Shown here: one piece after another, positions 31,377 to 36,762 of the stretch
Position numbering within the stretch: position 1 is the stretch's first letter
Layout of the letters: each line of letters begins with the position of its first letter
Source of the DNA: Dictyoglomus sp. NZ13-RE01
Lineage (GTDB): Bacteria; Dictyoglomota; Dictyoglomia; Dictyoglomales; Dictyoglomaceae
Assembly: GCA_002878375.1 (NCBI GenBank)
Contig: NIRF01000014.1
Span: 1-36,762 of the forward strand
DNA length: 36,762 nt
Reading direction: 5' to 3'
Notes under the pieces: model-generated
Told to the model about the DNA's origin: nothing
The model's input: only the letters and a program-made list of their open reading frames with translations
Database searches by the model: none
Program-made: the position numbers and the translations under genes

Positions 31377-32366
31377 ATGGGGATAAAAGATTTGTTTAAA
31401 CCTGAAGAACAGCTTATTTGTGTTGACTTTAATAATCCATTAAGAATCCTTTATGCAGGAAAAAAGGGAAGTAATATTCTCATCAAAAGTATTTTAGAGA
31501 AGCAGTTGCCAGATGAGATTTTTGAAGAAGGTCAGGCAATAAACTTTGAATCACTTTCTGAAGTTATTAAGAAAAGTTTTAACAATTTAAAAATTAAAAA
31601 GGCTAAAGTATTATTTGCTATTCCCTCTCAAAGTGTTGTGGTAAGATTTATAAATTTTGCCTATTTACCAGAGGAGGAGCTAAGAGAGGCTATTAGATGG
31701 GAACTTGATAGGTTTACTCCATTTCCTGCAGAAGATGTTTACTTTGATGTGCAAATATTAGATGTAGTAGAGAGAGAAGGAAATAAAGAATATGTGCTTC
31801 TTTTAGTTGCAGTTCCTTTAGAGGTTATTCAATCATATTTACAAATTTTCAATAACTTAAAATTAGATCTTCAGCTTGCTGATGTTAGTTCCTTCTCTGC
31901 TATTCGAGCTATCATTAAATCAAGAAAATCCATACCTGAGGAGACTACTTTGTTTTTGAACTCTCGTTATAAATTTATAGATTTTGTTGTTACAAAGAAT
32001 AAGAAGCCCTTTTTCTTTAGATCTTTAATAGCAAGAGAATTTTTTGAAGAGGAAGGGTTGGATGATTTAAGTAAATCTTTTGTTTTAGACAACTATTTAA
32101 AAGAAATATCGCAAGGTTTAAATTTATTCTATATGCAATATCCTGAAGAACGTATTGAAAGAGTTATATTATTAGGGGATAATGTGGTATATAAAGATTT
32201 TGTTGAAATGTTAGATGCCATGTTTGGACTTCCCATGGAAATATCTCCTCTATCTTTACAAGATATGGGTGTTCAAATAAAAAATAAAAAGATATTGGAT
32301 GAAATCCAAAATAATTTACCTAAGTGGGTAAGTGCTTTAGGTCTTTTGTTCTGGGGGGAAGTATAA
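31377..32366 (+). CDS. pilM: PilM, actin-like pilus assembly ATPase
   Basis: PilM (329 residues) is a cytoplasmic actin-fold protein that binds the N-terminal tail of PilN and links the inner-membrane platform to the motors. The segment YLPEEELREAIRWELDRFTPFPAEDVYFDVQIL is the hallmark, following an AIPSQSVVVRFI strand pair. Length is slightly below the common 340-380. It starts 1 nt after the preceding stop and pilN follows 3 nt later. Confidence 0.93.
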   Translation: MGIKDLFKPEEQLICVDFNNPLRILYAGKKGSNILIKSILEKQLPDEIFEEGQAINFESLSEVIKKSFNNLKIKKAKVLFAIPSQSVVVRFINFAYLPEEELREAIRWELDRFTPFPAEDVYFDVQILDVVEREGNKEYVLLLVAVPLEVIQSYLQIFNNLKLDLQLADVSSFSAIRAIIKSRKSIPEETTLFLNSRYKFIDFVVTKNKKPFFFRSLIAREFFEEEGLDDLSKSFVLDNYLKEISQGLNLFYMQYPEERIERVILLGDNVVYKDFVEMLDAMFGLPMEISPLSLQDMGVQIKNKKILDEIQNNLPKWVSALGLLFWGEV

Positions 32367-32369
32367 ACT

Positions 32370-32924
32370 ATGTTTAAGATAAATTTATTGCCAAGAGAGG
32401 CTAAGAGAAAAAGAGAATTAATAAGAATTCCATTTTTGGAAATTATTCTTTTGATTATAGCCTTGATAGCTCTTCTTTTTGGGATTGGTTTTTACAGGAA
32501 TCTTTATATTGAGGTGCAGAATTTGAAAGCGGAGAATACTAATTTGGAGGAACAAATTAGCTCAATAAAAGATAGATTGAGAGAGTTACAAAAAATTGAT
32601 GAATTAAAAAAACAATACAGTGAGAAACTTAAGCTTTTAGAAGAGATTTCTCAAAAAGAAATTGCTTGGTTAGATCTTTTTGAAAATTTAAATAGAAGTG
32701 TACCTAAGAATCTTTGGTTTAAAAATTTTAATATGGAAGATTCTAATTTAAATTTGGAGGGTTTTGCCCTATCCTATAATGATATAGCAGTTTTCTTAGC
32801 CCAAATGGAGACAATGGGGTATTGGCAAAATGTTAAATTAACCTTTGCTCAAAGAGTAGGCACTCCTCCTTATGAGTCCATAAACTTTCAGATATTAGCA
32901 TCTTATACAAGGGGTGAGCAATGA
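32370..32924 (+). CDS. pilN: PilN, inner-membrane pilus assembly protein
   Basis: PilN (184 residues) begins MFKINLLPREAKRK; the INLLP motif is the tail that docks in the PilM groove. One membrane helix lies at about 25-45 (FLEIILLIIALIALLFGIGFY), followed by a long coiled coil (VQNLKAENTNLEEQISSIKDRLRELQKI) and a small periplasmic ferredoxin-like domain that pairs with PilO. It overlaps pilO by 4 nt. Confidence 0.93.
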   Translation: MFKINLLPREAKRKRELIRIPFLEIILLIIALIALLFGIGFYRNLYIEVQNLKAENTNLEEQISSIKDRLRELQKIDELKKQYSEKLKLLEEISQKEIAWLDLFENLNRSVPKNLWFKNFNMEDSNLNLEGFALSYNDIAVFLAQMETMGYWQNVKLTFAQRVGTPPYESINFQILASYTRGEQ

Positions 32925-33463
32925 GAATAAATATTTGGATTATTCTTTCTGCTATTCTTCTTATTGTTTTGATAGCATCTTATGCCTTATTATATCGTCC
33001 CTTGGAAGCAGAAAAGAATACTCTGCTTGAGAACATAGAAAATAATAGGCAAACTCTTTTAAGATATCAAATGAGCTATAAAAAATTATTAGAGGAATGG
33101 GATAAGTTTAAAATGGATATACAAAGGTATTCAGAAATTCGGGAAAAATTGCCATCAAAGGAAGATCTACCAAGCTTATTAATTTTTATAGAAAAAACGG
33201 CAAAAAACTCAGATTTGAAAATAAATTCTTTTAAACCGATCTCATCAGAAAAGAAAGTAGAAGGAAAAACTCCTCCACCCTATGAAGAAATGAGTTATAG
33301 TATTGATATGGAAGGAAGTTATGGTGCATTTTTATTATTTTTGTCAAGAATAAAAACTGCTCCAAGATTAATTCTTATTAAAAATTTGAAAATAGTTCCT
33401 TCGGAAGTTAAGGCTACTACATTAAAGTTAAGTTTTATTCTATCCACTTATATTGCATATTAG
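32921..33463 (+). CDS. pilO: PilO, inner-membrane pilus assembly protein
   Basis: PilO (180 residues) has one N-terminal membrane helix (residues ~5-25), a coiled coil to about 75 (AEKNTLLENIENNRQTLLRYQMSYKKLLEEW) and a periplasmic domain with KLPSKEDLPSLLIFIEKTAKNSDLKINSFKP, the usual PilO core. YSIDMEGSYGAFLLFLSRIKTAPRLILIKNL is the second half of the fold. It forms heterodimers with PilN in known systems. ATGA overlap with pilN. Confidence 0.93.
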   Translation: MRINIWIILSAILLIVLIASYALLYRPLEAEKNTLLENIENNRQTLLRYQMSYKKLLEEWDKFKMDIQRYSEIREKLPSKEDLPSLLIFIEKTAKNSDLKINSFKPISSEKKVEGKTPPPYEEMSYSIDMEGSYGAFLLFLSRIKTAPRLILIKNLKIVPSEVKATTLKLSFILSTYIAY

Positions 33464-33473
33464 GGGGAAGGTT

Positions 33474-34088
33474 ATGGATATATCAAGTTTATTTAAAGAT
33501 TCTAAATTTAGACTATTATTGCTGATTTTAGGTGTTGTAGTAGTTGTAGGAGGTATTGGGTATTATTATTATGCCAATGTTCTTTCGGTCCCTGTATCCC
33601 AAGAAGTTCCAAAACGGTCTACGGCCCCACCACTTCCTTCTTTTTCTGATACAATTACTCAAATATTAAGTACTTTAACCTTTAAAGAAACTGTATACAC
33701 TTATGTTAATATTCCTCTTGGTAGGAGTAATCCTTTTATCCCTGTGATAACTATTCCAGAAAGAGGTTCTACAAGTATTTCCATTTCAACATCCCAAGAA
33801 TCACAGTCCCAGGCTTCTATAAAGAAAGAGATATCTACACCGATAAAGACAGTACCTAAAAGTTCCTTTGCATCAAACTTTAAAGTAACTGGAATTATAA
33901 AATATGGAAATGCATATTATGCTACTATTGAAGAGAATGATAGGGGGTATGTTGTTAAATATATTCCTGGAGCTAAGAAAGATGTAATTAAGGGGGATAT
34001 TTATGTAGAGAATATTGATTTTGATAAAAAAATAGTTACGTTAAGAAAAGGTCAAGAGGTTGCTAATTTAAAATTAGGAGGTGAATAA
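33474..34088 (+). CDS. pilP: PilP/GspC-like periplasmic connector
   Basis: A 204-residue protein with one membrane helix at about 13-33 (LLLLILGVVVVVGGIGYYYY), a Pro/Ser-rich linker, the segment GRSNPFIPV at 83-91 that recalls the RDPF motif of PilP/GspC proteins, a second Ser/Thr-rich linker, and a small C-terminal beta domain (FKVTGIIKYGNAYYATIEE, then KGDIYVENIDFDKKIVTLRKGQE). Such domains bind the secretin N0 domain. I use ATG 33474 with GGGGGAAGG upstream rather than the TTG at 33453. The PilP name rests on layout more than on sequence identity. Confidence 0.78.
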   Translation: MDISSLFKDSKFRLLLLILGVVVVVGGIGYYYYANVLSVPVSQEVPKRSTAPPLPSFSDTITQILSTLTFKETVYTYVNIPLGRSNPFIPVITIPERGSTSISISTSQESQSQASIKKEISTPIKTVPKSSFASNFKVTGIIKYGNAYYATIEENDRGYVVKYIPGAKKDVIKGDIYVENIDFDKKIVTLRKGQEVANLKLGGE

Positions 34089-34089
34089 T

Positions 34090-36762
34090 TTGACCCTTAA
34101 AAAGAGCTCAATAATTTTAACCATTTTTTTATTTATATTAATGGTATCTTTTTCTGCAATAACATCTTTGGTTAATGTTCAGGTAAAAGAAGTAGTCCCA
34201 GGTTCAATGGATATCATACTTTTATTTTCTTCTCCTACTATTCCTAAATACACACTCTCATTAAAAGGAGACAAGCTTTATATTAATTTAGAAAAGGTTA
34301 GTAATAGTCTAAAAAGTAAATCTGTTGATATAAATAAGGGTTATTTAACAAAGATAGATATTTTGGAAGATAAGAAAAAGGAGGTAACAACTTTAGTTAT
34401 AAATTTTGTTGGATCTATACCTAAATATGTTGTTTCTCCAAAATTGGGAAGTTTAACTTTGTCTTTTAATCCTACCACAGCTCAAACCCAGGTTCAGGAG
34501 AAGCCTATTTCTGAGACAAAGGAAGTAGTAAATTTAATTGGGGTTAGTTTGGATAAGAATTATAAACCACCTTTAATAGTTTTAAAGACAGAAAATAACA
34601 TAATACCAACTTATAAAACATTATTGTTAAAAAATCCTCTAAGGTTTGTAGTTGATTTAGAAAATACTGTTGATAAAACTACAATGAAGAAATTAGATAT
34701 AAATGTCAGCCCCTTTATTGCTCTTCGTATATCTCAATTTTCAAAGGAACCTTTAGTAACTCGTCTCGTTTTTGACTTGAAAGTCTCCTATCCTCCTGTG
34801 AATGTGAAAATATCTGATAGAGGATTAGTAGTTGGAACAGAAGAGGTGCTTGCAAAGATTCCATCAAAACAGCTAGCAGTAGTCACTAAAGTTACTACCG
34901 AAACCACTGTTGAAAAGCCTAAGGTATCTACAGAAGCTCCTGTGGTTTCTACTCCTACATTAGTAACCCCTCAGGTAGTTCAAAAGAAAGAAGAAACAGT
35001 ACAGGATAAGTTCTTACAGAAAGTAACTTTAAGCTTTGATAGGGCGGAGATTAGAGATGTTTTAAAGGCAATGGGACAGTTAGTTGGAATGAATATTATA
35101 ACCGATATTAGCGTACAGGGAAGAATTAGTGTTTATCTAAAAGATGTAACCTTTAGAGATGCTTTTTATTCCTTACTTTCCGCCAGTGATTTAGGTTATA
35201 TTCAACATGGGGATGTATTGATAGTAAGCACTCTTGATAAAATGCAAAAATTACAAAGTAAAGATATTACAACAAAAATATTTACCTTTGAGTATTTTGA
35301 TGTCAATAAAGCAAAAGAAATAGTTAGTAATATAAATAAGAATCTTATTGTTGTTACTGAGGAAAATAGAAAGTGGCTAATTGTTTCTGGTCCTTCTTCT
35401 GAGCTTGCAAAAATAGAAAGTTTTATTAAATCTTTAGACGTCCCAGCTCCTCAAATTATTACTGAAGCACCATTGCCAACAGATAAGTTTATTATAGAAA
35501 AGGTTGATGGTAAGGTTTATCTCTCTACGAATCTTAAAGGTGAAGATATAAAGGATGTTTTACAGGAGATTGCAAGAAAGACAGGTAAAAGCATATTTAT
35601 TGATAAAGAAGTAACTGGAAATGTCTATGTTACTTTAAATAGAGTTCCTTTAGATAGAGCAATAGACTTGATTATTCGTGGAAGTGGACTTAGCTATCAG
35701 ATAAAAGAGGGTGGAGAGCTTGTTGTAACTAGAAAAAGAGAGGATTCAGCTCTTATAACCTCTACCATAGAATTATTGAAAGCGGAAGTTATAAATAATA
35801 AGATATACATCTCTGGAGATTTAAGAAAAGTTGATATAAGAGATGTTTTAAAAGAGTTAAGCACAAAAACTGGTTTAAATTTCGTTATAGATCCAAAAGT
35901 TTCAGGAGAGGTAGAATTTTATGTAAATCAAGTTCCAATTGATGAGCTTTTATCACTACTTGGGAAAATTACTGGTTTTACCATAGAGAAAGTTGGAGAT
36001 ATAAATTATATAAAACCTGAAGAAAAGATACAAATTTCTACAGAAGTAGCGAAGACGAAGCTTTACACATTAAGGTACATAACATTGAGTGACCTGCAGA
36101 GGGTAGGAGGACAAATAGTAAAAGGCATAACCTTCAGCTTTGATGAGAAGACAGGTTTATTAGTAGCGACAGGAAAAGAAGAAGACCTAAAGGTATTAGA
36201 GGATCTAATAAGCAAAGTAGATGTACCGAAGAAAGAGGAAGTAGTAAGCAGGGAGCTACTCACGATAGAGAAAGAAGGGGATAGATACTTAGTGAGCGGA
36301 GAGCTAAAAGGGGTAGACATAAAAGACATCATAAGGGAGATAGGAAGGAAGACAGGCATCAACTTTGTAATAGATCCGAGAGTAAGCGGACAAGTAGAGC
36401 TATACCTAAACAAAGTAGACTTAAAAGAAGTAATGAAGATACTAAGCGATGTAGGAGGTATAAGCATAGAGGAGAGCGACAAAGTAACCTATGTAAAGCC
36501 GAAGACAGAAGAGAAGGTAGCGGTGCCAGGTGAAATAGCGAAGACGAAGCTTTACACATTAAGGTACATAACATTGAGTGATTTGCAGAGGGTAGGAGGA
36601 CAAATAGTAAAAGGCATAACCTTCAGCTTTGATGAGAAGACAGGTTTATTAGTAGCGACAGGAAAAGAAGAAGACCTAAAGGTATTAGAGGATCTAATAA
36701 GCAAAGTAGATGTACCGAAGAAAGAGGAAGTAGTAAGCAGGGAGCTACTCACGATAGAGAAA
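34090..36762 (+). CDS. pilQ: PilQ-like secretin, N-terminal repeat region (3' end outside window)
   Basis: One uninterrupted frame of 891 codons runs from TTG 34090, behind GGAGGTG, to the window edge. After a signal-like helix (8-27) come two AMIN-like domains (~28-126, ~148-247) that in relatives bind peptidoglycan, a Thr/Val/Pro-rich linker (~264-307), an N0/STN domain (~313-381) and an N1 domain (~395-453). Then the pattern becomes unusual: STN-like units at ~468-550 and ~560-643, N1-like ~656-713, STN-like ~722-804, N1-like ~819-876 and the start of another. The outer-membrane pore domain is not yet reached. Confidence 0.88.
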   Translation, partial: MTLKKSSIILTIFLFILMVSFSAITSLVNVQVKEVVPGSMDIILLFSSPTIPKYTLSLKGDKLYINLEKVSNSLKSKSVDINKGYLTKIDILEDKKKEVTTLVINFVGSIPKYVVSPKLGSLTLSFNPTTAQTQVQEKPISETKEVVNLIGVSLDKNYKPPLIVLKTENNIIPTYKTLLLKNPLRFVVDLENTVDKTTMKKLDINVSPFIALRISQFSKEPLVTRLVFDLKVSYPPVNVKISDRGLVVGTEEVLAKIPSKQLAVVTKVTTETTVEKPKVSTEAPVVSTPTLVTPQVVQKKEETVQDKFLQKVTLSFDRAEIRDVLKAMGQLVGMNIITDISVQGRISVYLKDVTFRDAFYSLLSASDLGYIQHGDVLIVSTLDKMQKLQSKDITTKIFTFEYFDVNKAKEIVSNINKNLIVVTEENRKWLIVSGPSSELAKIESFIKSLDVPAPQIITEAPLPTDKFIIEKVDGKVYLSTNLKGEDIKDVLQEIARKTGKSIFIDKEVTGNVYVTLNRVPLDRAIDLIIRGSGLSYQIKEGGELVVTRKREDSALITSTIELLKAEVINNKIYISGDLRKVDIRDVLKELSTKTGLNFVIDPKVSGEVEFYVNQVPIDELLSLLGKITGFTIEKVGDINYIKPEEKIQISTEVAKTKLYTLRYITLSDLQRVGGQIVKGITFSFDEKTGLLVATGKEEDLKVLEDLISKVDVPKKEEVVSRELLTIEKEGDRYLVSGELKGVDIKDIIREIGRKTGINFVIDPRVSGQVELYLNKVDLKEVMKILSDVGGISIEESDKVTYVKPKTEEKVAVPGEIAKTKLYTLRYITLSDLQRVGGQIVKGITFSFDEKTGLLVATGKEEDLKVLEDLISKVDVPKKEEVVSRELLTIEK
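36049..36273 (+). repeat. Repeat copy A within the secretin gene
   Basis: This 225-nt stretch recurs 489 nt downstream (exactly 163 codons). The two copies differ at two positions only, GACCTG here against GATTTG in the second copy, both silent. It encodes an N1-like domain (LYTLRYITLSDLQRV to VDVPKKEE) and the first strand of an STN-like domain. The full unit is N1 plus STN, 489 nt. Confidence 0.95.
36538..36762 (+). repeat. Repeat copy B within the secretin gene, cut by window edge
   Basis: Second copy of the 489-nt unit; 225 nt are visible and identity with copy A holds to the last base, so the repeat continues beyond the window. It begins after GCG AAG ACG as copy A does. The number of further copies cannot be seen. 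Confidence 0.95.

Follow-up and report, generated by a model that had tools for sequence, protein, structure and literature searches.

The window analyzed here is a stretch of 36,762 nucleotides from Dictyoglomus sp. NZ13-RE01 (NZ13) that ends where its contig, C14, ends; C14 is one of the 34 contigs of a 1,927,013-base genome. The published assembly (1,927,012 bp, 34 contigs) was obtained from a MiSeq metagenome with IDBA-UD (PMC5854780). The last part of the window carries a pilM-pilN-pilO-pilQ operon, in which the position of pilP is filled by a protein without family match. The features are the following.

31377-32366, plus strand: pilM (PF11104, E=4.2e-24)
32370-32924, plus strand: pilN (PF05137, E=1.9e-14)
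32921-33463, plus strand: pilO (PF04350, E=6.2e-15)
33453-34088, plus strand: small protein at the place of pilP, hydrophobic stretch at its N-terminus (no match in Pfam or NCBIfam)
34081-36762, plus strand: 5' part of pilQ, 894 aa, open to the last base at the contig end (TIGR02515 PilQ, E=1.3e-47)
34606-34833, plus strand: AMIN domain, presumed to bind peptidoglycan; of two such stretches this is the better (PF11741, E=2.5e-10, best at aa 176-251)
35011-35226, plus strand: STN domain 1 (N0 type), aa 311-382 (iterated profiles)
35272-35445, plus strand: N1 domain 1, aa 398-455 (iterated profiles)
35494-35712, plus strand: STN domain 2, aa 472-544 (iterated profiles, Pfam)
35785-36012, plus strand: STN domain 3, aa 569-644 (iterated profiles)
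36043-36273, plus strand: direct repeat copy 1, 231 nt (99% identity to copy 2)
36055-36228, plus strand: N1 domain 2, homogenised unit copy A, aa 659-716 (iterated profiles, repeat identity)
36265-36495, plus strand: STN domain 4, homogenised unit copy A, aa 729-805 (iterated profiles, Pfam)
36532-36762, plus strand: direct repeat copy 2, 231 nt (spacing 489 nt, i.e., 163 codons)
36544-36717, plus strand: N1 domain 3, homogenised unit copy B, aa 822-879 (99% DNA identity to N1 domain 2)
36754-36762, plus strand: fifth STN, of which only the first residues precede the contig end (in phase, +163 aa)
Contig C12 end (L002:8650-10356), minus strand: 3' part of pilQ, a 569-aa open frame to the stop

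The protein encoded at 33453-34088 is probably a divergent PilP. NZ13 has a single secretin, and ATPases of the T2SSE family (PilB/PilT type) are encoded elsewhere in the genome, away from pilMNO-pilQ. The pilQ frame starts with a GTG codon at 34081, and not at 35488, where an earlier note made from the DNA letters had placed the start of the feature.

A Pfam search of pilQ finds AMIN, STN/N0 and Secretin_N domains, in agreement with the iterated profiles, which give the order STN-N1-STN-STN-N1-STN-N1 in the window, followed in phase by the fifth STN. The profiles and the 489-nt repeat thus match the initial count of at least four STN and three N1 domains, with a 163-residue unit in phase and an array still running at the window end. 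An antisense open frame of 139 codons (36063-36482, minus strand) lies over the repeat. It is unlikely to be a gene, and would rather be a by-product of the T-poor third positions; in the relatives, antisense frames do not consistently keep to the same frame.

The full D. turgidum protein scores 380.3 with the PilQ model TIGR02515, above the cut-off of 284.35, and 246 with the GspD equivalog model TIGR02517, whose cut-off is 351. The two pieces of NZ13 PilQ, taken separately, score 163 and 199 with TIGR02515. The AMIN, N0 (STN) and N1 domains all precede the pore, and the product of pilQ is predicted to be the outer-membrane secretin of a type IV pilus machine.

In an AlphaFold model of N1-STN-N1 (alignment of 13 rows, mean pLDDT 77), N1 folds as beta-alpha-beta-beta-alpha and STN adopts the N0 fold; the model is a monomer and carries no information on rings. 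Its best Foldseek matches are the N0-N1 parts of XcpQ, PilQ and GspD, and a profile search of the PDB agrees. The model of the whole stalk (four rows, pLDDT 41) is too poor and was not used.

Continuation on a second contig and in relatives

The pilQ frame leaves contig C14 within the 489-nt tandem repeat, and the one further occurrence of this repeat in the NZ13 genome is at the end of contig C12. The frame on C12 starts in the middle of an STN domain and continues with N1, N1, STN, N1, the Secretin pore (PF00263, E=1.9e-45) and a stop. Followed past 36762, the frame therefore does reach a pore, and the reading of the locus as a PilQ secretin with an expanded STN/N1 chain holds. Downstream of pilQ on C12, the translations, examined by eye, correspond to an X-Pro aminopeptidase, EF-P and acetyl-CoA carboxylase subunits. 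C14 and C12 can be joined because the order pilM-pilN-pilO-x-pilQ-pepP-efp-accB-accC is unbroken in those relatives in which both flanks are covered.

The two contig ends are not a simple overlap: the N1 copy on C12 is identical to neither of the homogenised N1 copies on C14, and two base differences distinguish the STN tails beside the break, so that three N1 copies and two STN tails carry distinct base differences. Since C14 ends inside an STN and C12 continues with N1-N1, which is not the same stretch, NZ13 PilQ has at least six STN and six N1 domains. Its length is about 1,508 aa (894 + 45 missing + 569), plus 163 for any further unit.

Similar arrays are found in the relatives. The PilQ of D. 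thermophilum H-6-12 (finished genome of 1,959,987 bases) is a complete frame of 1,262 residues with five STN and four N1 (nine domains). That of a 1,855,560-base single-contig genome, which we take to be D. turgidum DSM 6724, is a complete frame of 1,427 residues with six STN and five N1 (11 domains), and the difference between the two is one N1-STN unit. The idea that the number of units varies thus holds between species; the earlier note had put it at the level of strains. Two further species of the NZ13 genus have five STN and five N1, one of them with a short run of N in the repeat; unit counts from short-read genomes are possibly collapsed. All complete proteins of the Dictyoglomus PilQ family have at least nine STN/N1 domains.

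It is very improbable that the repeat is a false loop of short-read assembly. NZ13 is indeed a MiSeq metagenome assembly broken inside the repeat (PMC5854780), and other draft genomes also break there, but the copies at the NZ13 break carry their own base differences and the same array is present in the two single-contig genomes. In one of these, D. thermophilum, every repeated region was verified by PCR across the repeat (PMC3931368). An artefact is therefore contradicted for the family. The repeat region is a break point in three draft genomes of the family (L030, L031 and L032; contigs C12/C14 of NZ13), and because of these breaks pilQ is probably entered as two partial genes in several public records.

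Concerted evolution and third-position composition

The pilQ units evolve in concert. Their DNA identity within a gene is 90-100%, whereas the same units are mostly 65-90% identical between species; the non-repeated PilQ domains show the ordinary orthologue pattern. N1 domains 2 and 3 of NZ13 are 99% identical, N1 3/4 and STN 4/5 of D. turgidum 100%, and the near-identical tract of D. turgidum pilQ covers 817 nt at a lag of 486. Unequal recombination would make the middle of the array grow and shrink by whole N1-STN units of about 163 residues, and would also keep these units nearly identical.

The homogenised units have an unusual composition at third codon positions. Compared with the remainder of the gene, after matching for amino acids, G3 is 0.25-0.34 instead of the expected 0.13-0.17, and GC3 is 0.38-0.42 instead of 0.19-0.24 (z of 4.4 to 6.9), while T3 is lowered, to about 0.1 in the NZ13 genus. 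The edges of this shift fall within about one 30-codon bin of the ends of the homogenised tract. Raised G3 and GC3 and lowered T3, with sharp boundaries, are seen in the pilQ of six genomes (window 36040-36762; L026-L030).

Some other duplicated segments behave in a similar way. In 1.2 Mb of D. turgidum (L074-L133), a filter for long duplicated segments (identity of at least 95%) retained seven genes, and in all of them GC3 reaches or exceeds the 97th percentile of the 990 remaining genes; the seven are two beta-glucosidase-like genes, two binding-protein-like genes, two pilin genes and the coiled-coil tether described below, whose repeats have raised G3 and lowered T3 in four species. The two pilin-like genes are adjacent (G003:C1 at about 905468-906490, L119), 97% identical and high in GC3, and are apparently also under gene conversion.

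GC-biased gene conversion has been proposed for bacteria (PMC4450053) and is a possible cause of the raised G3 and GC3 of the homogenised units. It does not account for the T-to-A part of the shift (valine GTT to GTA). Horizontal transfer is unlikely to explain the odd codon usage, since both genera show the pattern and only in the homogenised tract. Translational selection was also discarded, as elongation factor G, taken as highly expressed, lacks the pattern. The pilQ arrays make it possible to test, within single genes, the debated idea that gene conversion is GC-biased in bacteria.

A proposed periplasm-spanning role

The outer membrane of Dictyoglomus is reportedly held off the murein and inner membrane by pegs of about 80 nm (Hoppert 2012, as cited in PMC7203096). 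A candidate for these pegs is an SLH-coiled coil-beta barrel protein that six of the seven genomes encode (SLH domain, E=2.5e-9; L161 in NZ13, L162, L163, L164, L165 and L167:584-2701). Its coil of 350-592 aa has a predicted length of 52-88 nm; it is shortest in D. thermophilum (52 nm), followed by D. turgidum (60 nm), two other species of the NZ13 genus (68 and 81 nm) and NZ13 itself (88 nm). The coil contains homogenised internal repeats in four of the five species.

Each STN/N1 domain would, by homology, form one ring of the PilQ oligomer, and the stacked array would be a long tube from the murein/inner-membrane platform (AMIN, PilM, PilN, PilO) to the outer-membrane pore. AMIN domains serve for attachment to peptidoglycan, and those at the N-terminus of PilQ would keep the far end of the tube at the murein. 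PilN and PilO are ordinary in size, so the reach would have to be provided by PilQ. Assuming a gain of 3-4 nm per extra ring, which is our own estimate, nine to 12 domains would make, very roughly, 45-60 nm. N0 domains are often absent or disordered in solved secretins (PMC5745081), which makes the stacking of repeated N0 domains uncertain. We nevertheless consider it likely that a PilQ with nine to at least 12 N0/N1 domains, lengthened by recombination, lets the pilus channel reach across the very wide Dictyoglomus periplasm, with rings that would stack, cross the gap and be anchored as just described.

The proposal of the earlier note that a long stalk bridges an unusually wide envelope is thus consistent with the gap of about 80 nm reported for the host group (PMC7203096); the comparison with tether length is positive over five species and falls short of significance. 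D. turgidum exceeds D. thermophilum in both coil length and PilQ domains and NZ13 is highest in both, but over the five species the two quantities are not significantly correlated (Spearman 0.67, p=0.22), and a rise of one with the other is suggestive only.

The lack of a significant correlation is one of the points in favor of a rival explanation, in which the array is a by-product of recombination that expands and contracts neutrally, the extra domains adding flexibility or nothing, and no reach. The pilQ units are homogenised, and so are other duplicated segments of the genome, which also speaks for this explanation. We find it rather improbable, because the frame and both folds are retained in all copies, every complete protein of the family has at least nine domains, each copy entails the cost of a further ring made of at least a dozen chains, and the outer-membrane tether is also long in the Dictyoglomus lineage.

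Less probable still is that the extra N0/N1 domains act not as spacers but as additional gates or as docking sites, in which case the docked partner would be the pilP-position protein, PilN/PilO or DNA-uptake proteins. N0 is a known docking surface in type II and III secretins (established knowledge, and titles of PDB entries), and a second gate lies near N0/N1 in Thermus PilQ (PMC5745081), but near-identical tandem copies suit a spacer better than specific docking, and the operon has only one copy each of the partner genes pilM, pilN and pilO, none of them unusual in size.

An extension of the spanning role, which we put forward only tentatively, is that the PilQ stalk acts as an evolvable molecular ruler, whole two-domain units being added or removed by recombination. 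Selection would fit the stalk to the gap between outer membrane and murein, whose width would depend on the coiled-coil tether, itself varying in length by homogenised internal repeats, and the same recombination would leave a codon mark consistent with biased gene conversion. The number of rings of a secretin is normally taken as fixed, and related species whose PilQ differ by whole near-identical units are a natural series in which to test how a trans-envelope machine is matched to the width of its envelope.

Comparison with known secretins and tethers

The N1-STN profile has matches in 276 of 386 genomes, and among the matches listed, several full units in one frame occur in Dictyoglomaceae only. 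The profiles are tuned to the Dictyoglomus PilQ family, and the absence of multi-unit arrays elsewhere is a strong but not exhaustive negative (rare arrays are possible). The follow-up of 17 other loci gave at most two STN per protein, and other long secretins (frames of 2,229, 1,647 and 1,347 aa) have several N1-type domains or extra modules, with at most one weak STN or N0 match. A contig search of the genomes with one pore sequence gave no match, and with an alignment as query it returned only the Dictyoglomus PilQ family and one distant secretin. No account of the long Dictyoglomus PilQ was found in a literature search. The predicted N0/N1 array of Dictyoglomus PilQ is the longest found in this survey.

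The closest parallel is the PilQ of Thermus thermophilus (757 aa, rings N0-N5), likewise a secretin of type IV pili whose stack of rings is extended, from a thermophile with a wide periplasm; Thermus has rotund bodies. Thermus PilQ is described as exceptionally long, with six rings (PMC5745081), which the baseline of one N0 and one or two N1 assumed at the outset for a typical PilQ leaves out. Its channel measures about 35 nm in length, and the periplasm about 70 nm (PMC4463427). It is about half the length of the Dictyoglomus protein and has one N0 followed by N1-type folds. This pattern is not the one found in Dictyoglomus, where N0 (STN) and N1 domains, nine to at least 12 of them, are interspersed in an array with near-identical tandem units.

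Dictyoglomus PilQ shares AMIN domains, N0, N1, the pore and the pilMNO operon with the PilQ of Neisseria and Pseudomonas (TIGR02515). In the latter, N0 and N1 occur once each. GspD/XcpQ of type II secretion also have N-domains and a pore, and provide the solved folds closest to the repeat unit; unlike them, the Dictyoglomus secretin adjoins pilMNO, lies outside any gsp operon, has a repeated N0 and scores below the GspD cut-off. Finally, SlpA, OmpM and Omp-alpha are outer-membrane tethers; the SLH-coiled coil-barrel protein of Dictyoglomus, whose coil is also lengthened by internal repeats, has the plan of SlpA/OmpM. In Deinococcus SlpA, a coil of 28 nm in the model agrees with the 30 nm measured between outer membrane and peptidoglycan (PMC9388160). 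These tethers are coiled coils with an SLH domain and not secretins, but like PilQ, for which this is predicted, they span the periplasm.
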